Source: Coffea arabica
Taxonomy: Eukaryota > Streptophyta > Magnoliopsida > Gentianales > Rubiaceae
DNA length: 64,000 nt
Direction: 5' to 3'
Assembly (NCBI RefSeq): GCF_036785885.1
Contig: NC_092323.1
Span: 13,772,501 to 13,836,500 of the forward strand
Shown: piece after piece, positions 2,050-28,442 of the stretch
How the letters are laid out: each line of letters opens with the position of its first letter
Numbering within the stretch: the stretch's first letter is position 1
Notes under the pieces: generated by a model
Databases searched by the model: none
Told to the model about the DNA's origin: nothing
The model's input: only the letters and a program-made list of their open reading frames with translations
Position numbers and translations under genes: made by a program

Positions 2050-2287
2050 TGTTATTAAACTGTAGTAAAGAACAAAACTATACTAGACAAATACAGAGAC
2101 TTTGAGGCGTGAAAGCACTTTCCTTAAGGTGTTATTTGCCTCTATTAGACAAATTACCTCTAGGATACAACAAAGTCTAAGAACTATCAAATGAAAAGTA
2201 AAAGTCATATATAGGCAACATGCACTTTATCCTCTTTCAATGTGGGACAATGGATTTCAACATACTCATTACAAACTATTACCAACA
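2050..2287 (-). repeat. Copia 3' LTR (element orientation)
   Basis: 238-bp direct repeat matching 6829-7066. In element orientation it starts TGTTGGTAATAG and ends TTTAATAACA. It holds a TATATATG box-like stretch roughly 75 nt from its start. Confidence 0.95.
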
Positions 2288-2298
2288 ATCCCCCACTT
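2288..2298 (-). other. Copia polypurine tract
   Basis: On the minus strand this reads AAGTGGGGGAT directly before the TG of the 3' LTR, the usual place and base composition of the plus-strand DNA primer site. Confidence 0.8.
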
Positions 2299-2833
2299 AG
2301 TTTGTAATGAAATCAAATCAGCACTCATATTATCTTGCATAGAGAAAGGTGTTTGTGAACTTAAACCCTTCTCTTAGTGTAAATATTTCACTTGTTCTAA
2401 CAAGTTATGGTGGCTACATTGCTTAAACCATAACTTTAAAGTTAAAACAGAAATAGCACACACAAGATTATACCTTTTCGGAGAATAGTTCACGAAATGA
2501 TTTTAGCACTTTTACTGGCCGTGTGCTCCATCCTAGATTCATGATCATTTACAAAAGAAAACCCCCACTTTTGCTGGGAGCGGCACCACTCCCATGATCA
2601 TATAGGTGAAGTACATTTCTAGCCTTTATTACCAAGGCACTATGAAACCATATTTAACTTCATTAAGAGTATGATACTCAGCCTCTTATGTATCAAACTG
2701 CACTAGTACCTTGGAATGGTATGATACAATTTCTAGTGCTCACAACCACTTATTAGTAACTTGTTATTACCCTTTAAACCTTTCACCTAGTGTTAGTGCT
2801 AGAAGAGAGGTTGGGTTACCATTACTAGTGGTT
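2299..2833 (-). other. Copia 3' non-coding segment
   Basis: About 535 bp between the gag-pol stop and the polypurine tract. No second open frame is seen. Confidence 0.6.
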
Positions 2834-5800
2834 TTAGACAATGGGTTTTAACCTCATTCCCAATGACGTTGCTTTCACTACATCTCTTGAGAGAGCTTTA
2901 GTGAATGGATCCGCCAAATTGTTGAATGATCTAACATACACTACTGTGACTATGCCATCATTCAATAATTGTCTGACATATTCATGTCTTAGACTTATAT
3001 GTCTAGATTTGCCGTTATATATTCTATTTAACGCTCTAGACATAGTGGCTTCGCTATCACAATGCAAAGAAATGGCTGGCATCGGGTTTGGCCACAACTC
3101 GATGTCTAACAGTAAGTTTCTTAGCCATTCGGCCTCTTTGCATGCAGCTGCTAAGGCTACAAACTCAGCCTCCATGGTGGAATGAGTTATGACTGTTTGT
3201 TTCTTTGATGCCCAAGAAACAGCTCCTCCACCCAACATAAAAATCCATCCAGAAGTAGACACTTTGTCACATACACTGGTTACCCAACTTGCATCGGAAT
3301 AACCTTCAAGTACAACCGGAAATTTGTTATAGGAAAGCTCTAAATCTTTTGTCCTTTTAAGATATCCAAGCACTCTACCTATAGCTTTCCAATGCTCTAT
3401 ACCAGGATTCTTAGTGTATCTAGCGAGTCTACAAACTGCATATGAAATATCTGGCCTAGTACAATGTGTAGCATACATTAGGCTACCAATTGCACTAGCA
3501 TACTCTAATTGAGCAATTGGCTTTCCAGAATTTTCAAACAACTTAAAGTTAGGATCATAAGGAGTGCTTACTTCTTTTATCTTCAAATGTTGATACTTGT
3601 TCAAAACTTTCTCAACATAATGAGATTGACTTAAAGAATAGGCCCCACTATGTCTCTTAACTTTAATTCCTAAGATAGTATCTACTTCTCCAAGATCTTT
3701 CATCTTGAATATAGAAGACAAATACTTCTTAGTTTCTTCAACGCCTTTGTAATTAGTACCAATAATTAGCATGTCATCTACATATAGACAGATTATCACA
3801 CCATACTCTCTAGTAAACTTGGAATAAATACACTTATCAGCATTATTATATTTAAAACCATTAGAGAGTATAGCAGATTCAAACTTTTGATGCCACTGTT
3901 TAGGCGCTTGTTTTAGACCATACAAAGACCTTGTTAGTTTGCAAACTTTCTTTTCATTCCCTGGTAGAACAAAACCTTCTGGTTGATCCATATACACCTC
4001 TTCATTTAAGTCACCATTTAAAAAGGCCGTTTTCACATCCATCTGATGTACACACAAATCAAACATTGAAGCCAATGCTAATAGTACTCTTATAGATGTA
4101 ATTCTAGCCACTGGTGCATAAGTATCAAAATAATCGATTCCCTCCTTTTGCCTAAATCCTTTTGCTACTAATCTTGCCTTGAAAGTTTGTACAGATCCAT
4201 CAGTAGCATATTTCTTTCGAAATACCCACTTACAGCCAATTGGTTTAGAACCCGGAGGCAAATCAACTAGGATCCAAGTATTATTACTTAATAATGAATC
4301 CATTTCATCATTAATTGCCTCTCTCCAAAACGATGCATCTCTCGATTTCATAGCTTCACTAAAAGTTTTAGGGTCATCTTCTACAGTTAACAAGATAGGA
4401 ATCTTGTCAAGTAGAAACTGTCTATCGCCTTCAACTAGGAAAACAATAGCTTGTGAATCTATAAAATCAGAGGATAAATGTTTTTCTTTCCGTTGCCTTT
4501 GACTCCTCCTTAACTCACTTGGAATGTCCCCTGCATTCCTTTTATTATTATTGGAGGGTCTAGCATTGGAAACAGGCGGTGGCTCTTGGCTTGGATCTGT
4601 ACTCATTGTCGAATTATAAAGAAATTTATCTTCTAAAAATTCGACATCTCTAGATTCCACAATGACGTTAGAATCTAAATCTAGCAACCGATATGCTTTT
4701 GAATTTTCAGCATAGCCTACAAACACACTTTTAAGTGCTCGAGGTCCCAATTTTGTCCTTTTATGATCAGGGACTCTATAAAAGGCTATACAACCCCAAA
4801 CTCGAAAATACTTCAAGTTTGGTTTTCTACCTTTCCATAATTCATATGGTGATACCTTCGATTTAAGCGAAGTTACTCGATTATGTATGTGACAAGCAGC
4901 CAGTAAGGCCTCTCCCCACAAATTTTTAGGCAGTCCAGAACTTATAATCATGGCATTTACCATATTTCCTAAAGTTCTATTTTTCCTTTCTGCCAAACCA
5001 TTTTGTTGCGGAGTATAAGGTGCACTAGTTTGGTGTATAATTCCATTTTCTTCACAAAATTGAGAAAAATCAGCAGGGAGATATTCCCCACCTCTATCAC
5101 TCCTCAAAATTTTAACCTTCTTTCCTAGTTGATTTTCCACCAGATTTTTGTAACACTTAAACATATGAAATGACTCATCTTTCGTTTTCATCAAGTAAAC
5201 ATACACATATCTTGAATAATCATCAATGAATGTGATGAAATACTTATTTCCTCCTCTTGTTAGAAACCCATTAAATTCACAAACGTCAGAATGAACAAGA
5301 TCCAACAATTCATTGTTTCTTTCTGCTTTAGGAAAAGGTAATCTGGTCATTTTTGCTTGTATGCATGTTTCACACCTTTTTTCAACATTATCTTTGAACG
5401 AAATTAGCCCATGTTTAGACATAAACTGCAAAGTTTTATGATTAGTATGCGCTAATCTACCATGCCAAAGAGAATATGAAGCATCAACAATATACACAGA
5501 AACATTATTTTTATTGATACATAACTTGAACATTCCATCACAAGAGTATCCCTTGCCTACAAATACACCATTCAAAGAGAAGATAAGCTTATTAGACTCT
5601 ATTACAGCCTTTAGCCCCTTTTTGTTTAAGGCATCAGCCGACACAAGATTTTTCCTAATTTCTGGAACATGAAGTACATTGGCCAGTATAAGTTTCTTTC
5701 CGGAAGTAAACTGCAAGTCTACACTTCCTATGCCAATGACCTTTGCTGTATCATGGTTTCCCATCAATACTTTATGACCATCAGGAACTTCTTCATAAGT

Positions 5801-6805
5801 CTTGAATTGGGACTTATCATTACAAACATGCACGGTGGCACCAGAATCATACCACCAGTCACACGATTTGGTTGCAGCAGCCACATGCAACTCAGAAATC
5901 ATGCCAATGTTCCAATGCGAAATCATTGCAACAATCTCAGCAACATCTTGTTCAACCAGATTTGCATTTTTGGCATTGTCTTTCTTTTGCTTTTTGTTGC
6001 TATCTGCTTTGCACTCACGCTTGTAATGTCCCTTCTTGCCGCACTTATAGCAGATTCTATTCTTCTTCTTGTCCTTAGATGTACTTGCATCTGGAGACTT
6101 TCTTTTGGAACCAGAAAAATTCTGTGAATTCTTCTCACTTAAAGCATTCACTTTGACATCAGATTCTATTTGCTTCTTTTGAAGATTTCTGGTATCTTCT
6201 TCAATACGCAAATGTTTTAAAATCTGATCTGTAGTGAATGATTCAGTAGTATGGAGCAACTTTTTCTTATAGTCATTCCAACTAGTTGGAAGTTTGGCTA
6301 TAATTGCTCCAACTTGCAAGGATTCAGATATCTCCACTTTCAGATCATGTAACTTAGACACAATCACTTGGAGATCATGAATCTGATCCATAAGAGAAGA
6401 ATTCTCAATGATACGAAAATCAAAATATTGCATAATCAGAAATTTATCCGCACCTTGTTTCATCGTATTATACTTGTATTCCAGCGCATTCCAGATTTCC
6501 TTTGGCGACTTGACTGCAGTATATAGATCATACAAGCGGTCAGAAAGAGTGTTCATGATGTGTCCTCTGCACAGCAACTCGTCCTCTGCGCGTTTCCTGT
6601 GTTGTGCCTTGACTTCATCAGAATCACCATCTTTAGGTTCTGGAATTTCAGGAAGAGAAGGATCCAAAACGTAAGCAATCTTCAAAGCCGTCAGGAAAAA
6701 CATCATCTTATCCTTCCAACGGGAGAAGTTAGTGCCGTCGAATCTGTCCAACTTCACGAAGTCCTGATTCATCACTTTGAACGCAGATTCAGAACTTGAC
6801 TCCAT
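2834..6805 (-). CDS. Ty1/copia Gag-Pol polyprotein, intact
   Basis: A single frame of 1323 codons encoding the full set of copia proteins. The ATG at 6805 (MESSSES) is chosen because the frame upstream of it reaches only a GTG. In order: an N-terminal Gag domain ([13 protein letters not shown]), a CCHC zinc knuckle ([14 protein letters not shown], about residue 252-265), an aspartic protease (DSGAT, about 320), a GAG-pre-integrase segment (LWHGRLAH), an integrase core with D/D/E landmarks ([24 protein letters not shown]), a reverse transcriptase (KWVFRKK, then YVDDMLIIG at about 1007) and RNase H (DASW, then [11 protein letters not shown]). No stop, frameshift or missing catalytic motif is visible, so it may be functional. 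Gag and Pol share one frame, as is normal for plant copia elements. The very short leader and missing tRNA primer site are unusual. Confidence 0.95.
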
Positions 6806-6812
6806 TGTTGAT

Positions 6813-6826
6813 AATAACACCTTAAG
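6813..6826 (-). other. Candidate self-priming site replacing a tRNA primer-binding site
   Basis: Two bases after the 5' LTR, where plant copia elements normally carry a site complementary to initiator-Met tRNA, the minus strand reads CTTAAGGTGTTATT. All 14 bases are complementary to AATAACACCTTAAG inside the same LTR (plus-strand 6902-6915, repeated at 2123-2136 in the other LTR). In the RNA this would form a hairpin with a loop of about 75 nt. In Tf1-type elements such pairing supplies the reverse-transcription primer. That role here is inference. Confidence 0.55.
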
Positions 6827-6828
6827 AT

Positions 6829-7066
6829 TGTTATTAAACTGTAGTAAAGAACAAAACTATACTAGACAAATACAGAGACTTTGAGGCGTGAAAGCACTTT
6901 CCTTAAGGTGTTATTTGCCTCTATTAGACAAATTACCTCTAGGATACAACAAAGTCTAAGAACTATCAAATGAAAAGTAAAAGTCATATATAGGCAACAT
7001 GCACTTTATCCTCTTTCAATGTGGGACAATGGATTTCAACATACTCATTACAAACTATTACCAACA
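6829..7066 (-). repeat. Copia 5' LTR (element orientation)
   Basis: 238-bp LTR matching 2050-2287. It would drive transcription toward lower coordinates. The TATATATG stretch lies about 80 nt before the segment complementary to the primer region. Confidence 0.95.
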
Positions 7067-7071
7067 GTTTA
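7067..7071. repeat. Copia target-site duplication, right copy (gttta)
   Basis: Perfect partner of 2045-2049. Confidence 0.95.
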
Positions 7072-7714
7072 GCCATTCTGATGAGTCGTTTAAACCGCTA
7101 GCCGTGAATGTCCAGTACCGTATATTTGTGCTGTTTATTGGATAAGCAGCAAGAAAATAGTCCTCCACTACAAGACCGAACCTCCCACTTGATTGGTCTG
7201 ATGATGAAAAGCTAGAGACTAATTCTGTGCCAGAAGGCAGATATTGACCGCCTAAAATGGTATCAGTAGGATACTTGTAACTCTCCCACAAGGTATGAGT
7301 TTCGTTATGGATAACTAAGTTTCCAGAGTCGAACAAAGAGGCTGAAACCACAGGAGAGAGTTGGTCTTCGAATTCTGCATTGATTTTCTTCTGAGTGTCT
7401 GCAGTAGTTAAAAGCCAACCTTGTCCAGTGAACCAAAGATAGGCATTCGAGGAGATTGGTGGATCATCTCTATTTGCAGTCCAAACAGTAGTATTTGTAG
7501 GGGTACCAATCAACCATATCCCAACTGCATATCCATTCCCTTTCGGATAGAAGCCGAAACCAAAAAGTCCAGAAGGAGATAGCCATGAAGAAGGATAAGA
7601 ATTTGGGAAGAGTTTCGTTCCTATGCTTATGTTTTGGCTAAGCAATTGAGCTTTCACGGCAACTAATGAATGTAGCAAGCAGAAGATAACCAGTAGTACG
7701 AATAAATTTGCCAT
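7067..7714 (-). pseudogene. LecRK-1, 5' part: signal peptide and bulb-lectin domain
   Basis: The upstream 216 codons of the split receptor kinase. The ATG at 7714 is chosen because it opens a signal peptide (MANLFVLLVIFCLLHS, cleavage probably near VKA/Q) and the frame further upstream reaches only a GTG. The mature part is the mannose-binding bulb-lectin domain (SSWLSPSGLFGFGFYP, VWTANRDDPP, LFDSGNLVI, ESYKYPTDTIL), as in extracellular G-type lectin kinases. The interrupted frame runs only two codons (C, W) into the LTR and stops at 7058. If transcribed, the locus could therefore still secrete a lectin-only fragment of about 218 aa. No other disabling change is seen in this half. Confidence 0.9.
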
Positions 7715-9411
7715 GATATGGAACCAGATTGAGCTGAAACCAAGGTAAATTTGGTTGTTCACTCAGTCTTTATAGCTAGTTGTATAATCAAGAAAATTTT
7801 GCAAACTCAAATCAACAAACGGCTGTTGTAATGATGTACCCTCTCGCCTTCTCAAATTGATTACTCACACTATTTAGTCAAACTAGTTTTTCTCAGCCTC
7901 ACGCGATGCGTGAGAATGCCCTGGGTCTGTGTTAAACAAGATCAAATGAAGGCAAGTGAATTAATATAAAATGGTTATATATTAAATACATGATGGGTGC
8001 TAATAACAATGGGGAATTTGACTTTAGGTAAATTGGTTATTGTCGTTATTCGTTTATTCAATTTATTTATGAAGCCGGAGAGATTTTTGTACCTACTGGA
8101 CCTGGACTACTAATTGACTTAACGTGAGATATCGATACGATATATTAGTATTAATTGATATATTAGTATTTCATAACCGTAATAAATTATCAGCGATCTA
8201 AGAGTCAATGCAACGAGATTTTTTTTGCTAGAATAATAAAGATAAACTAACTGTAATAGGTTGTTACATGGTCCAATTTGGGCAAGCCAGTAAATTCCAC
8301 AATAATCTTACTCTGAAATTAATGGCCTTACAGAGTAGCCAGTAATTTTAATTCAACAAGACAAGATATCAAGACATAATTGCATAAGAGCAAACTTGAT
8401 CCTACATGCGAGTATTATGAATTTGTGCATACAAGTGATGCTGGCACGGGAGATATGCTTACCTTTTATTTAGAGCAAATAAAAAATGAATGATCAACAA
8501 TTACCTAAGTAACCAAGAAAAAGATTATTAATTGGATGGGATCTCTTGTCGTTTTACCTTCAATCTCTACTTTCACCATGCCGTAGAAGTGATTAACTTG
8601 TGCTAGGTTAAACAAGTACAGCTGACAGATACAATTTTATAAAATACAGGATGACATCACTTGGTCTAACTAAATATACCTAACAAAGACGATACACATT
8701 CATATTAAATGAAAGAAATTTGAAGGACAGATAGACCTTTTATTGAGGCCAAAACCATACTTAAAATGCGTAATCAATGCATTAGACAAATCCTTGTATA
8801 TACATTATATGCATTCAATTGTTCTACAAATTCTTTCAAGTGGGACAAAACATAAAAACTAATCACCAGAAAAACCATAATCATGCAGCAAGATGGCCAT
8901 AGCAAGTCTAACAATGGCTCCCATTTCACGACAGTTGAAACCTATAAAATATCTCTAAAATTTTTAACACCCTTCGGTGAACCATTGCAATGATTTCAAC
9001 AAACATTCTGACTCATTAGGCCTCTCATTATAAGGAAAAAAGGCCAAAAGGCAGAAATAAAGCAAAGAGTTCACCTCACAAAATTATGGAAGCCGAAGCT
9101 TTTAATTGGAAGAAGAAATTGCTTTTGAGATGACTTGCTCACAAGACCAGTTAGGTGAGAGTGTGAAGACTCCACCTTGCAAAATTGCCAAATCCAAGTC
9201 TTCAATTGAAGAAAGAAACACATCCAATATGTTGCTTTTTCAGATGGCTTTCTCTCAAGATTACAGAGGCAAGAGAGTTTTGTGCTTTGGACACCACCCA
9301 CCACTGAAGACACAGTCACACGTATGAAGCATAAATACAAAGCCACCAAAGTTGACCAAGCACATGACTGAAGCACAAATGCAAAAGCCACTTAACCGTA
9401 TATTTATTAAC
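7715..9411. other. LecRK-1 upstream region
   Basis: About 1.7 kb of AT-rich DNA expected to hold the leader and promoter of the disrupted receptor kinase. No coding region or clear repeat is recognised. A 106-codon frame at 9071-9391 resembles no family. Confidence 0.4.
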
Positions 9412-11123: not shown

Positions 11124-12644
11124 TGTGACAGCCCCACCTCCCCCTAAGGCGAACCAGAGGGTTCGGCGGGCCGCCTGCCCAACTCCCGCCGGGACTCAGT
11201 CGTTCACTACATTCCTCAAACAGATTACCAGATAAAACTCACATATTACAATATTGCAGAAGGTTACTCAAGCCAGTTTCGAGTGTAACCAGGTCAAAAA
11301 TGCAAGAAACTATACCAGAATCACAAAAACAGATTCACAGAATGCATTCCAGCGGAAACATCATAACTCAGGCTCTCCAAGTCCAAATCCAGAAATTCCA
11401 AAACCATCTGAAATCTAAGAAACAGGGATAAATTTCATCAGAAGGCCTCAACAACCAATTCGGAAGCAATTCCAGCCAAAACAACCAATTACAGTCGCAA
11501 ATCCCAATTTCGGGTAAACCAGAACAGCAATAGTAATTTCGACTTTTCTCACTCTACGCTACTCCGATTGACCTAAAATTTTGTAGGCACCTTTAAAATG
11601 TCATTCCATACAACTTTTATGTTTTAAGAAAAGGCCAATTCGGCCTCTATCTAGGATCTAAAATTTCGGACATAATGAAGAACCAAGAACCCTAATTTTC
11701 CAGATTTCTTCCAAAACAGAATTTACTTGCAATCTTCCACTTTTTCCACATTCTAGTTCCAGATTTCTTCCAAAACAGAATTTACTTGCAATCTTCCACT
11801 TTTTCCACATTCTAGAATCATTAAACATCATTTCCAATCATCATACATAACCACATAATCATACTCATATTAAAACAGAAAAATCCCCAAAAATAATAAA
11901 AGTTCATCCATCCAACCACAACTCAAAATATAATCCATCAAACCATCTCTTTAGCCATCACAAGTCTCTAATTTAGCATAATCAAGAACAAAGAAAGGAT
12001 GGCTAGACATGATACCTTCAAATATCAAGAAAGGTGATGACTTAGGGATTTTTCTTCCAAAACAACTCTACCAAGAGCTTCAATCTTCCTTAGCTAGCAA
12101 GTTTTATGGAGTGATTTGCAATTTAATCGGTTGGAACTCAAGATTTGGACAAGAAATTGAAGTGCAAGATGATGGATTTTCTCTCTCTTTTTCTCTCAAA
12201 ATTTCGTCCAAGACAAGCTAAAATGGAGAGAAATTGGGTCCAAATTGGTTTTAGTAAAGTTAGAAAAGTCTTGGTCAAAAGTCAAGGTCCAATGGTTTTG
12301 TGACAAATGGTCCTTTAGGGTTTTATTCTTATCTTTTTGTCTCTCCAATACAAATATCTTAACACTTTGTAAAATAATATCACTTAATACAAAATTCCAA
12401 CAAGTTGTCAAAAATATAATGCATTTACCGCACTAGCGGGTCCCACGTCCAAAATACGCTTTTAATTTCTCAAAAACTAACCGATACTAGAAAAATCATT
12501 TTCAAACTATCTTTGCTCATAAACTTTATCTGGAGAATTTTTCTAATAAAGAAAATGTAGAAAAGGCGGGCAATTAAATAAAATAAATCCTAGAAAATTA
12601 GAAAATTTTCGGGTTCTCACACTCATACTTTTCGAGGCGTCACA
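11124..12644. mobile_element. Solo LTR of a large LTR retrotransposon
   Basis: A 1521-bp segment starting TGTGACAGCCCCACC and ending GAGGCGTCACA, so its ends form short inverted repeats (TGTGAC...GTCACA). It has perfect 5-bp target duplications and no internal coding domain or second LTR. This is the product of recombination between the LTRs of a former element. The start resembles Ty3/gypsy LTRs of dicots, but the lineage cannot be assigned without internal sequence. Confidence 0.85.
11700..11816. repeat. Tandem 59-bp duplication inside the solo LTR
   Basis: Two adjacent, apparently identical units starting ccagatttcttcc at 11700 and 11759, each ending cattctag. Confidence 0.9.
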
Positions 12645-12649: not shown

Positions 12650-13334
12650 ACCTTTCCATTCAAAATATATTTTCACCCAGAATTGCAGGGAAAGAAATTT
12701 ATTATTCTAGGGTTTGGTAAACAAGTTAGAATAGAATATTTACTCAGTTTTCAATACTTGGATGTTAGAATGGAATATATCAAATACAAATTTGACTTAA
12801 CTGTCCTTGATTAGTTTATAAGACGTAATATGTCTTATTACCTTCTGTTTTATTTCTTCTATAGCATTTGTCTATTTACATGAAATCTTAATATTTTTAC
12901 TTCAAAATAAATGTGAATTGATATATGAAATTTTCTTTTGTAATACTTGATTCATTCTAATATATAGATTTTCAAGTTAAAATTTTGCTGTTACTAGTAA
13001 TATAATTAGCAACGTAAAATCAATTTTTCAAACAATAAAGTATCTTAAAACATTTGTTCTTACTGCAAAAGAAAAAAATGTTTTAAATACAAGGAAATTA
13101 AATATTATAAAATATTACATTCAAATATTATTTAAACTTATAAATAATCTAAAATATCATGATTATAAAGATTTATAAAGATATATTTGACATTTACTAT
13201 GTAAGTACTTTAGAATAAAGGTAAAAAAGGGTTTTCCTAATCCCTCGTTTGGTATATAGAAAAGGTTTGAAAAGGAAAGCCCTTTTCTACTTATCCCTAT
13301 CCCTCATGTGGTGGAGGTAACAGAAACCGAGAAG

Positions 13335-13757
13335 GTGCATTATAATTTTTCACAATAATGATGAAGACAATCAATGACTCAGTTAAAATGTAGACAATTA
13401 TTTTTACAATTCTAAACACTTTTCGATTTCTATTAAATTTCTCCATGTTTCTGTGATTTTTTTTCCTTTTCACCGCACAAATAATTAGTCTGCTTTTAAT
13501 AGAAGATTATTTGGAAAATTTTTTGCCAAGAATCAAAATGTTCACGTTTGAATTGCTATTTTTAGGAATTTTTGTAGAAAAATGTAATATAGTGATTTTG
13601 ATATATGTGAGATAAAAATGTGATTGCAAATTATGTTCATGAAAAATGTAAAAAATTTTCTGCAAAAAATCAGAATCTAAACAAGGAATGCGTCCCCTGA
13701 GCAATTATTAAAGCAACTTTTGATAACATTCCAGTAATCCCTAATGGCCCCTTACAA
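13335..13757 (+). pseudogene. Duplicated fragment of a LecRK promoter, leader and start codon
   Basis: This stretch is similar, with changes, to 24248-24300 joined to 25894-26115, the immediate upstream region and first codons of the intact LecRK gene. Shared landmarks are tgtagacaa/cgtagacaa, acaattctaaacac, tctattaaa, agaagattatttgg, ccaagaatca and attaaagcaacttttgat. The homology runs through the equivalent of the start codon (13744) and fades within a few codons. The copy therefore kept a promoter but no receptor. It lacks the AT-rich element that separates the same blocks at 24301-25893, and carries its own small MITE at 13544-13686. Confidence 0.65.
13544..13686. mobile_element. Small MITE, about 145 bp, in the LecRK fragment
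   Basis: Sequence from cgtttgaattgctattttta to aatctaaacaagg with imperfect inverted ends. It is missing from the otherwise similar stretch at 26030-26060, which serves as the empty site. A close relative lies at 32790-32932. Confidence 0.6.
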
Positions 13758-14083: not shown

Positions 14084-14685
14084 TGAAATATTATTCCGGC
14101 GTTGAGGCATTACATTGTATTTCAGGGTGATTTCTCTTTGTGTAATTGTAGCTATTGCTATTTTTTTGGGCTATATAGAATTACTATTACCTATGAAAGA
14201 AATTATGAAATACTGCCGTCCACAATGATCTAGTTTATTGTGATATATATTTCATTTTTTGACTTGTATTGCTATTGAGGTAGACATTTGCGATTTTTCC
14301 AATGTATCCAGAAACTCAGAAGTTTCTTGGCTTTTCGCTCAAGGAGTACTTCTTGCACTTACTTCTTTGATTTCTTGCTAGTAAACTTCGTTGTATATTC
14401 ATGCTATTTTTTTTTGCACTAAATAAAATTCCTATTATCTGTGAAAGAAAAAAGTATGACACATGTATTGCAATACACATCGACACCATCTAATGTGATA
14501 GATATTTCCTTTTTTGATAGCAATTGAGGTAGATGTTTGCTATTTTTCTAATGTGAAGTTTCATAGATTTTATGCTTGATTTTCAAGAATTAATGTCTAA
14601 GATTTTTGTTGTGGTAACTTTAATGTAGTTGACTGGAGTATTTAGAATTGTAGACAGAAGTTGTTTACATTTTGACTGAGTTATT

Positions 14686-14960
14686 GATTGTTTTCATCAT
14701 TATAAAATTGAAATGCACTTCCTCGGTGATTGTTGTCATCATTATTGTGAAAAATTGTTACTGTGGAAAATTGTAATGCACTTTCTCGGTGATTGTCTTC
14801 ATCATTATTGTGAAAAATTGTAATGCACTTCCTCGATGATTGCCTTCATCATTATTGTGAAAAATTATAATGCACTTCATCAATTGTCCATATCATTATT
14901 GTGGAAAATTGTAATGCACTTTCTCGATGATTGTCTTCATCATTATTGTGAAAAATTGTA
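14686..14960. repeat. 47-bp tandem repeat array, block 1
   Basis: About five to six imperfect units of roughly 47 bp built on tgattgtcttcatcattatt, gtgaaaaattgtaatgcact and tcctcga. Units differ by small deletions and base changes. An inverted unit stands alone at 13335-13378. Confidence 0.85.
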
Positions 14961-15329
14961 CTTCCTCTATCCCATTTTGATAGTCATAGTTTTTTTCCAC
15001 ACAGTTTAAGAAAAAATAGTTAACTTTGTTGCAAAAACAAATTTAGGTTGCTATTTTTCTAAAATACCCTTACATTAAAAAGAGTACAAATCTATACTAA
15101 TTATTCATGGAATATGGATGGTTAATTGTGAGAATATGGATGGTTTTTCAAATTTTCACTCATGATTTGTAGACAATGATTACATCGTTTGTTTCCCTAC
15201 TGATATAAATAAACTTGAAATAATAACAAAGTTGGCTTTTTGTATATCAATATGTTTTGAAAAATTTAAATGTGTTAAATGGGATAGGTTAACAATCTAA
15301 TATTAAATAAGATAGTTTATATTAATAAC

Positions 15330-26102: not shown

Positions 26103-28442
26103 ATGAGCTCTCTTACAGTTTTTTTCTTGCTACTCTTGACATTGGCTTCCAAAGATCTTGCCGGAGCTCAACAGCAGGTGGTGTGCCGGTATTCCGCTAT
26201 TTCAGCATCCGATCAGTCAACTATATGGCTCTCACCTTCCAGTCGATTTGCGTTCGGATTCTTTAAAGAAGGATCAGGTTTTAAAGTTGGAATTTGGTTA
26301 GTGGATGACTCAAATGATACTATTGTTTGGACAGCCCAAAGAGATGATGCAGCAGTATCATCAAATGCAATTCTCCAGTTCACCAGTGGAAGGATCATGT
26401 TGGCAAGCCCTGGGAATGAGAATAAGTTTATTACTCCCGAGCAGAATGAGCAACCCAAGTGTCCCTCCATGCTAGACTCTGGAAATCTTGTTATTTACAA
26501 TGAACAAGATCAAGTTATCTGGCGGAGTTTCGACTTCCCTACAGATACCATCTTAGAGGACCAATTTCTGCACCATGACCATCGACTATATTCTAATCTT
26601 TCTCCAACCAATCACTCAACTGGAAGATACAGTCTAATTGCGCAATCTGATGGAAATCTTGTTGCTTATCCTGCCAAGGCAGGAGACACTGTTGAAAGTG
26701 CCTATTGGGATTCTGACACTGACATGACTACCCCGCCGCGAAGCCTATACCTCAATAGCAGTGGCGCATTTGTGCTGGTTAATGACACGGATTTATCAGC
26801 AGTCAGTAACAAGGACAAGTCTATAATCAGCTCCAATTCATCTTTGCAACATGACAATGTAATCTTGCGATTAAACCTTCGTTTTGATGGAAATTTAGTC
26901 TTGTATTCTCATTCCCTGAATACAACCAACAAATCTACAACTGTGCTGTGGCAAGCAATTGATGATTTGTGTGATGTGAGCAGTTCTTGTGGTGTCAACA
27001 CCTATTGCACCAGGTCCAACAATCAACCCCTTTGCAAATGTCTACCAGGTACCGAGAATGTAGCAGATTTCCCTAGTGGCTGTCAGAGGAACTCCACTGG
27101 AGCAGTGTGCATTGCGGGGAAAGAATACGGTGACATTTACGACTTTGCATCTCTGAAAGATCTCAGGTTCAAAGATGTCCCTTACTTTGCAAAGATGTTA
27201 GGGAAAGAAGAATGCCTTCAATCTTGCTTGGAGGACTGTGATTGTGATGTGGCACTTTTTGACGAGTCACGGGACTTATGTCGGAAATATGCTCTTCCTT
27301 TAAGCTACACTAGGATTGATAATACTTCTATCTCAATCATAGCTTTTTTCAAAGTGAAGAAAATCACTGGAGAAGCAGGAGATGGACATGTTAAACCCCC
27401 GTGGACGCTGATTCTTGGCCTGAGTTTAGGATTTTTTGCCTATTCAAGTGCTGCTCTTGCCCTATCTGGCATTTTCATATTCAAATTCCGCCTTATGAAG
27501 TACAGGAAGCTTTTGGACACAGGAAGAACTGGCTTGACTAAGGAATTCACCATTCGAGCATTCACTTATAATGAGCTGAAGAGGGCAACTAACGGCTTTA
27601 AGAAAGAGAGAGAGTTAGGCAAGGGCTCTTTTGGGGCAGTCTATAAAGGAACTTTTGACAATAGAAGCTTTGTGGCAGTAAAAAGATTGGAGAAGGTAGT
27701 CGAGGAGGGCGAGAGGGAGTTCAAAGCAGAAGTGAGGGTGATTGGCAGAACTCGTCACAAAAATTTGGTTCGTTTGCTTGGCTTCTGCGCCGAGGGCTCA
27801 AAGCGGATTTTGGTATACGAATACATGAGCCATGGTTCCCTCGCAGATCTTCTCTTCCGGACAAAAGGGCGCCTAGACTGGAATGAGAGAGTCAGGATAG
27901 CACTTGACGTTGCAAGAGGGATCTGCTATCTCCACCAGGGATGTGAAGCTCCTATAATACATTGTGACATAAAGCCTCAGAACATTTTGCTTGATGAATC
28001 CTGGACAGCTAAAATCAGTGACTTCGGCTTGGCTAAATTGCTCCAACCGGATCAAACAAGAACCTTCACAGGAGAAAGGGGAACATTGGGATACATGGCA
28101 CCAGAATGGAAGACAAAAACTGCCATCACTCTGAAGGTTGATATCTATAGTTATGGGATTGTTTTGCTTGAAATTATATGCCGCAGAAGACACATTCAAG
28201 TCAATTTATCACGACCAGAAGAAACTCACCTACCATCCTGGGCTTATAACTGCTTTGCAGCCAGGGAGCTGGACAAACTTATGGATGATGATTCTACGGA
28301 TAAGAATGCATTCGAGAGGATGGTAATGGTGGCACTATGGTGTATTCAAGATGAACCAGCTCTTCGCCCATCAATGAAGAATATTATCTCAATGTTGGAA
28401 GGGATAACTGATGTGAGTATTCCCCCATGTCCAGTGTCTTAA
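26103..28442 (+). CDS. G-type lectin S-receptor-like serine/threonine protein kinase (LecRK/RLK1 type), intact
   Basis: A single-exon gene for 779 aa, the usual length and structure for RLK1/LecRK receptors, which sit in the plasma membrane, bind ligands outside and phosphorylate Ser/Thr inside, often in defence. Signal peptide 1-22 (ends DLAGA); bulb-lectin domain about 30-150 (WLSPSSRFAFGFF, VWTAQRDD, MLDSGNLVIYN); EGF-like segment about 286-315 (CDVSSSCGVNTYC); PAN-like segment about 340-415 (CLQSCLEDCDCDVALF); membrane helix about 434-460; kinase from about 495. The active-site motifs are complete: GKGSFGAVYKG, VAVKRL (Lys about 526), HCDIKPQN (about 620), SDFGLAK (about 640), MAPEW. This contrasts with the dead paralogue at 383-7714. 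The ATG at 26103 is the first in frame and opens the signal peptide. A second duplicate of its 5' flank lies at 13335-13757. The exact ligand is unknown. Confidence 0.95.
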   Translation: MSSLTVFFLLLLTLASKDLAGAQQQVVCRYSAISASDQSTIWLSPSSRFAFGFFKEGSGFKVGIWLVDDSNDTIVWTAQRDDAAVSSNAILQFTSGRIMLASPGNENKFITPEQNEQPKCPSMLDSGNLVIYNEQDQVIWRSFDFPTDTILEDQFLHHDHRLYSNLSPTNHSTGRYSLIAQSDGNLVAYPAKAGDTVESAYWDSDTDMTTPPRSLYLNSSGAFVLVNDTDLSAVSNKDKSIISSNSSLQHDNVILRLNLRFDGNLVLYSHSLNTTNKSTTVLWQAIDDLCDVSSSCGVNTYCTRSNNQPLCKCLPGTENVADFPSGCQRNSTGAVCIAGKEYGDIYDFASLKDLRFKDVPYFAKMLGKEECLQSCLEDCDCDVALFDESRDLCRKYALPLSYTRIDNTSISIIAFFKVKKITGEAGDGHVKPPWTLILGLSLGFFAYSSAALALSGIFIFKFRLMKYRKLLDTGRTGLTKEFTIRAFTYNELKRATNGFKKERELGKGSFGAVYKGTFDNRSFVAVKRLEKVVEEGEREFKAEVRVIGRTRHKNLVRLLGFCAEGSKRILVYEYMSHGSLADLLFRTKGRLDWNERVRIALDVARGICYLHQGCEAPIIHCDIKPQNILLDESWTAKISDFGLAKLLQPDQTRTFTGERGTLGYMAPEWKTKTAITLKVDIYSYGIVLLEIICRRRHIQVNLSRPEETHLPSWAYNCFAARELDKLMDDDSTDKNAFERMVMVALWCIQDEPALRPSMKNIISMLEGITDVSIPPCPVS

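Follow-up and report, generated by a model that had tools for sequence, protein, structure and literature searches.

The window, meaning the whole 64,000-nucleotide stretch of DNA that was analysed, carries a complete Ty1/copia element of 5,017 bp (2050..7066), which lies on the minus strand, as do all features of the element given below. It was delimited by identical LTRs, by GTTTA on both sides and by ordered copia Pfam domains. The 5′ LTR (6829..7066) measures 238 nt and is a short form without 307 nt found in the common 545-nt LTR; the 3′ LTR (2050..2287), also of 238 nt, is identical to it. A target duplication of 5 bp, GTTTA, flanks the element at each end, 5 bp being the length in most plant LTR elements. 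One intact reading frame encodes gag-pol (2834..6805) and, following a search of this frame in three pieces, yielded Retrotran_gag_2, zf-CCHC, Pol_BBD, gag_pre-integrs, rve, SH3_retrovirus and RVT_2. Gag, integrase and then reverse transcriptase (RT) thus follow each other within one frame, which, with the paired identical LTRs and the 5-bp duplication, is the arrangement of Ty1/copia. The spacer between the 5′ LTR and the gag ATG is 23 nt long (ATCTTAAGGTGTTATTATCAACA), and a polypurine tract, AAGTGGGGGAT (2288..2298; read from the sequence, limits by convention), adjoins the 3′ LTR. The element is young and recently inserted.

The element interrupts a lectin-domain receptor-kinase-like gene, leaving two reading frames on the minus strand (383-2023 and 7058-7762). 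The plus strand carries a longer uninterrupted relative at 26103-28442, identity here being judged by eye. Elsewhere in the window, a satellite-like short repeat of ∼47 bp occupies 14682-15007 with an inverted copy at 13328-13373, and 59 bp are exactly duplicated in tandem at 11698-11815.

Primer site and its complement in the LTR

The primer-binding site, CTTAAGGTGTTATT (6813..6826), begins 2 nt past the 5′ LTR, after AT. Over all 14 nt it is the exact reverse complement of a self-primer segment within the LTR, AATAACACCTTAAG (6902..6915, LTR positions 152-165), which was assigned by complementarity and covariation. This pair had been reported by the first-pass annotation and was confirmed to the base. 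A chance origin was rejected using 20,000 LTRs randomised by a first-order Markov model, in which complements starting 0-5 nt past the LTR were counted: 26 LTRs reached at least 10 nt, one reached at least 12 nt and none reached 13 nt.

TGG, the site for a tRNA-CCA end, is absent from the 23 nt between the 5′ LTR and the gag ATG, so that no complete CCA-ended tRNA fits as primer. A complete tRNA primer was rejected on this ground, and the earlier remark that the site matches no initiator Met tRNA was likewise borne out.

For comparison, the host genome was searched with RVT_2; 150 of 8,872 candidates were scored, and the first 30 were put in an RT tree. The five families with RT sequence (defined below), namely A with the window copy, a part of B, and C, E and F, formed one clade (SH-aLRT 100), apart from the 30 other copia rows, which fell into six groups. 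Six sites from five of these six groups were initiator-Met-like, one being exactly TGGTATCAGAGC and five being near variants, and their longest self-complements were 4-8 nt. We take TGGTATCAGAGC to be linked to initiator Met tRNA, in agreement with the available text of PMC6317226. Two rice copia elements are listed with the same site sequence in the available text of PMC3977881.

Self-priming has been predicted before for the TAR lineage of Ty1/copia, which in REXdb includes Houba and Osr-1, and an earlier proposal for these two elements is cited there (PMC6317226, available text). That survey asked for a complement that begins 0-5 nt past the LTR and spans at least 10 nt (PMC6317226, same portion); the window copy has 14 nt starting at 2 nt. 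TAR is the probable lineage of the element; the RT tree above was made of host-genome sequences.

Covariation of site and primer in seven families

Relatives were sought in the host genome assembly (1.2 Gb). From the DNA search 40 of 163 candidates were scored, and from a search with the gag protein 150 of 5,320; the gag matches listed spanned 100% to 36% identity. The 5′ ends were taken from 16 places found by the DNA search and 33 (20 + 5 + 8) found by the gag search, hand-picked to span this range. Anchoring succeeded for 41 of 42 in the first batch, which included the window copy, and for 8 of 8 in the later batch (n = 49); L109, a gag fragment without LTR, stayed unanchored. Sequence comparison placed the 49 anchored rows in seven families (A to G). 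As many of the rows are near-identical copies from arrays and all seven families come from one genome, independence, and with it the weight of the comparison, is carried by the seven families.

Pairing between the site and a partner at the corresponding LTR place was present in 49/49 anchored rows, with at least 12 of 13 standard pairs in 46 of them and 11 of 13 in the weakest (L090, L098 and L132). The decayed partner of L104 was set by hand, because automatic placement chose another place. The sites past the LTR read CTTAAGGTGTTATT in family A, CTTGAAGTTTGATTG in B, CTTAAGGAAATTT in C, CTTAAGATGTTC in D, CTTTAGGCTTTATTT in E, TTAAGACGATTC in F and CTAAAGGTATTT in G. Every one of them has its own matching LTR partner, and both strands change together between families.

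Sites and partners were then swapped between families, using one member per family and two for A. Own-family pairing reached 12/12 for A, B, C, E and F, 11/12 for G and 10/12 for D, and swapped pairing gave 7-10 of 12, except for the A site on the D LTR with 11. Family D pairs less well (11/13), the A site fitting its LTR better than its own site does. By duplex energy, the true family assignment ranked best among 5,040 permutations. Similarly, 23 distinct pairs were taken from all rows except L104 (n = 48). Pairing was seen in 94.6% of their cells, whereas 2,000 partner shuffles averaged 68.2% and never exceeded 79.3%; 68 cells were changed on both sides, compared with 17.0 on average and at most 37 in the shuffles. 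Two-sided changes occurred at 12 of 13 positions, a number that shuffles reach too. With one row per family, 95.6% of cells were paired, which none of 2,000 shuffles reached. The first-pass annotation had proposed covariation of both stem halves in other copies as a check, and had named a tRNA site at this place in relatives, or lost pairing, as grounds for dropping the idea. Permutations and shuffles bear out the covariation across seven families, a tRNA site was seen in 0/49 rows and pairing in 49/49.

Priming by a tRNA fragment, with the complementarity due to chance, is very hard to reconcile with these data and is given almost no weight. Half-tRNAs do serve Bianca, Osser and some other copia lineages (PMC6317226, available text), but TGG is lacking past the LTR and the site differs among seven related families in step with the LTR. 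It is also improbable, if less extremely so, that the helix is real but serves packaging, dimerisation or translation while priming uses something else. Such a role would suit a strand that can enter two helices of similar strength (see below), as in regulatory RNA, and priming itself is read here from sequence. Against it, the site lies 2 nt past the LTR in the 49 anchored rows, the normal place of a tRNA site, and no alternative site is visible there.

In family A, 38 loci were re-read. Their LTR lengths included 545, 392, 296 and 238 nt, and primer and site were kept in all 38, with one mismatch in two. Both LTRs of the window copy lack the 307 nt and the copy has a target duplication, from which it would appear to have moved with its short LTR.

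Near-identical copies also occur in head-to-tail arrays, in which the usual spacing is 5,086 or 4,933 bp and a few steps are shorter (4,618, 4,512 and 4,175 bp). The main steps equal one LTR (545 or 392 bp) plus an interior of 4,541 bp, so that tandem units share LTRs. Such runs lie at C12:53761683-53822401, C15:45991228-46026622, C12:54061178-54075785, C22:48582442-48592568 and C22:62487775-62493121 (also L001-L008 and L055-L084). Among the 40 scored DNA-search matches, 33 sit in tandem runs of 13, 8, 4, 3 and 2 copies plus three shorter units, the latter ∼3.3 kb apart at C6:37.12 Mb. GGGGAT, the end of a polypurine tract, precedes the inner units. Tandem LTR elements have been described already (PMC11899658, available text).

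Two scans of viral contigs found no relative. A scan of genome contigs returned seven contigs of bacterial or MAG assemblies (L120-L126) coding for copia RT, which appear to be contaminating eukaryotic DNA. L120 (64% RT identity) had no primer pair at the place inspected, its longest complement being 5 nt; L122 (46% RT identity) carries TGGTATCAGAG.

Predicted three-way-junction RNA domain around the primer

Folds predicted a three-way-junction RNA domain enclosing the primer (6876..6957), with a second copy in the 3′ LTR (2097-2178). Model R1 scored 91.3 bits at both places, the window sequence being among those that built it. The predicted domain consists of an outer stem S1, with its 5′ arm AGACTTTG at 6950..6957 and its 3′ arm CAAAGTCT at 6876..6883; a hairpin S2 (6900..6944), with the primer in its 3′ arm; and a further small hairpin, S3 (GUG..CAC, 6888..6897), just past a putative cut at the primer end, placed between 6902 and 6901. 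Domain length ranged from 64 to 110 nt. Of the 23 sequences folded, 14 had the S1/S2/S3 shape as their minimum-energy structure, with at least one such member in each of A, B, C, D, E and G; L088, L091, L103, L133, L132, L129 and three F sequences adopted other minimum-energy folds. Rfam gave no family match in 6700-7100 at E up to 5. Over 48 other loci the sole match of R1 was L104; as controls, L114-L119 include the LTR end and the 30 RT loci (L025-L054) are weak.

S1 and S3 were aligned on 20 chosen rows out of 49, leaving out family F because S1 was not found there; F has no S1 at the corresponding place and is missed by R1. In this alignment 89.5% of cells were paired, falling to 49.0% or 41.8% when the partner was slid by one column. 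The covariation score was 0.485, against 0.237 in shuffles and at most 0.145 in slid alignments, and 34 cells had two-sided changes, against 11.4 in shuffles. Since the S1 arms were located by family patterns taken from the folds, all these values lean towards S1. Two of the five measures were weak against shuffles, namely the number of pairs with two-sided change (15/500) and of pair types (128/500). Two-sided changes occurred in 7 of 8 S1 pairs; the stem reads for instance GACUUUG/CAAAGUC in A, GAAUUCA/UGAAUUC in B and AUUCUUG/CAAGAAU in D, has five pairs in E, and lacks its 5′ arm in the A copy L015. Covariation thus supports the predicted stem S1.

The evidence for S2 is moderate. Matched families were reached by 16 of 5,040 permutations, with the limits of the G segment set by hand. 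Fold z-scores ran from −3.3 (D) to −0.1 (L088) and +0.6 (L092), and in B, F and L088 the S2 fold had at most a slight advantage over shuffles. S2 and the helix between primer and site had similar predicted energies in A, E and F, with S2 stronger in C and D and the site helix in B. The primer may thus switch between both. Folding of the leader, from the 5′ LTR to the ATG, had been suggested by the first-pass annotation and agreed in part: the primer-site helix is in the minimum-energy fold of E and F and absent from that of the window copy, B and C. In the predicted fold of the window copy, the site pairs back onto the LTR end instead.

Position of the primer in the RNA and proposed priming route

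As a rule, transcription starts ∼30 nt past a TATA box. In the window copy, a TATA-like TATATATG (6985..6992) lies 77 nt ahead of the primer, in keeping with the ∼80 nt noted earlier; the 307 nt missing from this LTR include the TATATAAA box of the 545-nt form. Distances from TATA to primer were 152-153 nt in family B (8/8 rows), 190-192 nt in C (5/6 scanned; L133 and L134 left out), 158-162 nt in D (2/2), 186-187 nt in E (3/3), 221-222 nt in F (1/3, the other two stretches being too short) and 136 nt in G (1/2, weak), the patterns for B and G having been widened after inspection. In 23 rows of family A, TATATAAA was found at 283-313 nt in 10, at 143-165 nt in four and at 47 nt in L015, and in eight it was absent. 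In six control elements, TATA stood 79-101 nt ahead of the primer site. With TATA this far upstream and a start ∼30 nt past it, the primer would be internal to the RNA in most families. As far as promoter sequences can tell, transcription thus probably starts ∼100-190 nt upstream of the primer in most families, and further upstream in long-LTR A copies, and the primer probably lies inside the RNA, not at its 5′ end as in Tf1.

In a strict Tf1 mode, the RNA would start at the first base of the primer, and its first 13-15 nt would pair with the site and be cut off by RNase H. An A preceded by C is a possible transcription initiator; the primer starts with such an A in most rows of A to E, and deletions bring TATA to within 77 nt in the window copy and 47 nt in L015. 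Tf1 itself works in this way (PMC7175516, available text). We nevertheless regard this mode as unlikely here, as TATA lies 152-222 nt upstream in B-F and the two arms of S1, the 5′ one of which precedes the primer, vary in step, as is best understood if the stretch upstream of the primer is in the RNA. The doubt that the first-pass annotation had voiced about a strict Tf1 model is strengthened, TATA lying roughly 136-313 nt upstream in most relatives that have one.

Self-priming of this young copia element, as first put forward from the window copy, is strongly supported by covariation, position and the absence of a tRNA site; priming itself is what we infer from them. With good confidence, we propose as one explanation that the element primes its own reverse transcription by means of an LTR primer, a three-way junction and an internal cut, which takes in the observed pairing, position, covariation, restriction to these families and matched S1 changes. 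In short, as the comparison of families shows, an LTR-encoded RNA segment of ∼12-16 nt pairs with the site 2 nt past the 5′ LTR, the usual position for a tRNA primer. In most families, the primer can double as the 3′ arm of S2 in the compact S1/S2/S3 junction. The RNA would be cut just past ..CUUAAG, at the base of S2 and beside S3, and the freed 3′ end would leave S2 and anneal to the primer site. Following extension of the primer into U5 by RT, the minus strand would be transferred to the 3′ LTR. With a start upstream of the primer, a longer 5′ leader fragment would carry the primer as its 3′ end, and the RNA would not begin with the primer.

More tentatively, and at somewhat less than even chances, this copia clade may carry an LTR-encoded three-way-junction module that is internally processed to release its own primer, standing in for a tRNA, mechanistically distinct from Tf1 and possibly common to the whole TAR lineage.

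The proposed route shares with Tf1/sushi elements of Ty3/gypsy an RNA segment complementary to the site past the 5′ LTR and an RNA structure permitting the pairing (PMC7175516, available text). The Tf1 primer, however, comprises the first 11 nt of its RNA (PMC7175516, same portion), whereas the copia primer seems to lie within the RNA and can form part of a three-way junction. The superfamilies differ as well, Ty3/gypsy having RT before integrase and the window element integrase before RT. Fungal GalEa copia elements are also without a tRNA site, but theirs is a palindrome past the LTR forming a conserved hairpin, with no complement found in U5 (both PMC5445492, available text). In the TAR survey self-priming is predicted as here, and its available text does not mention an RNA domain, covariation or the place of the primer in the transcript (PMC6317226).

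Self-priming itself is therefore not new in kind; an internal primer with a covarying RNA domain was not found in print. Literature seen mainly as titles and abstracts, and thin on subscription journals, contained no report that these copia elements show covariation, have a primer inside the RNA or carry an RNA domain. In the TAR survey, the case for self-priming in plant copia elements was built on the length of the match, and covariation over seven families makes the claim firm and testable. If the primer is internal and excised from a structured domain, initiation, strand transfer and the plus-strand end must differ from those of tRNA-primed and Tf1-type elements. Elements of this kind will escape detection methods that look for tRNA primer sites.

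Finally, B, C, D and some others (rows L100-L103, L108 and L091-L099 among them) have a G-rich run immediately ahead of the primer that is similar to the polypurine tract of the element (e.g., AGTGGGGG) and might play a part in the mechanism.
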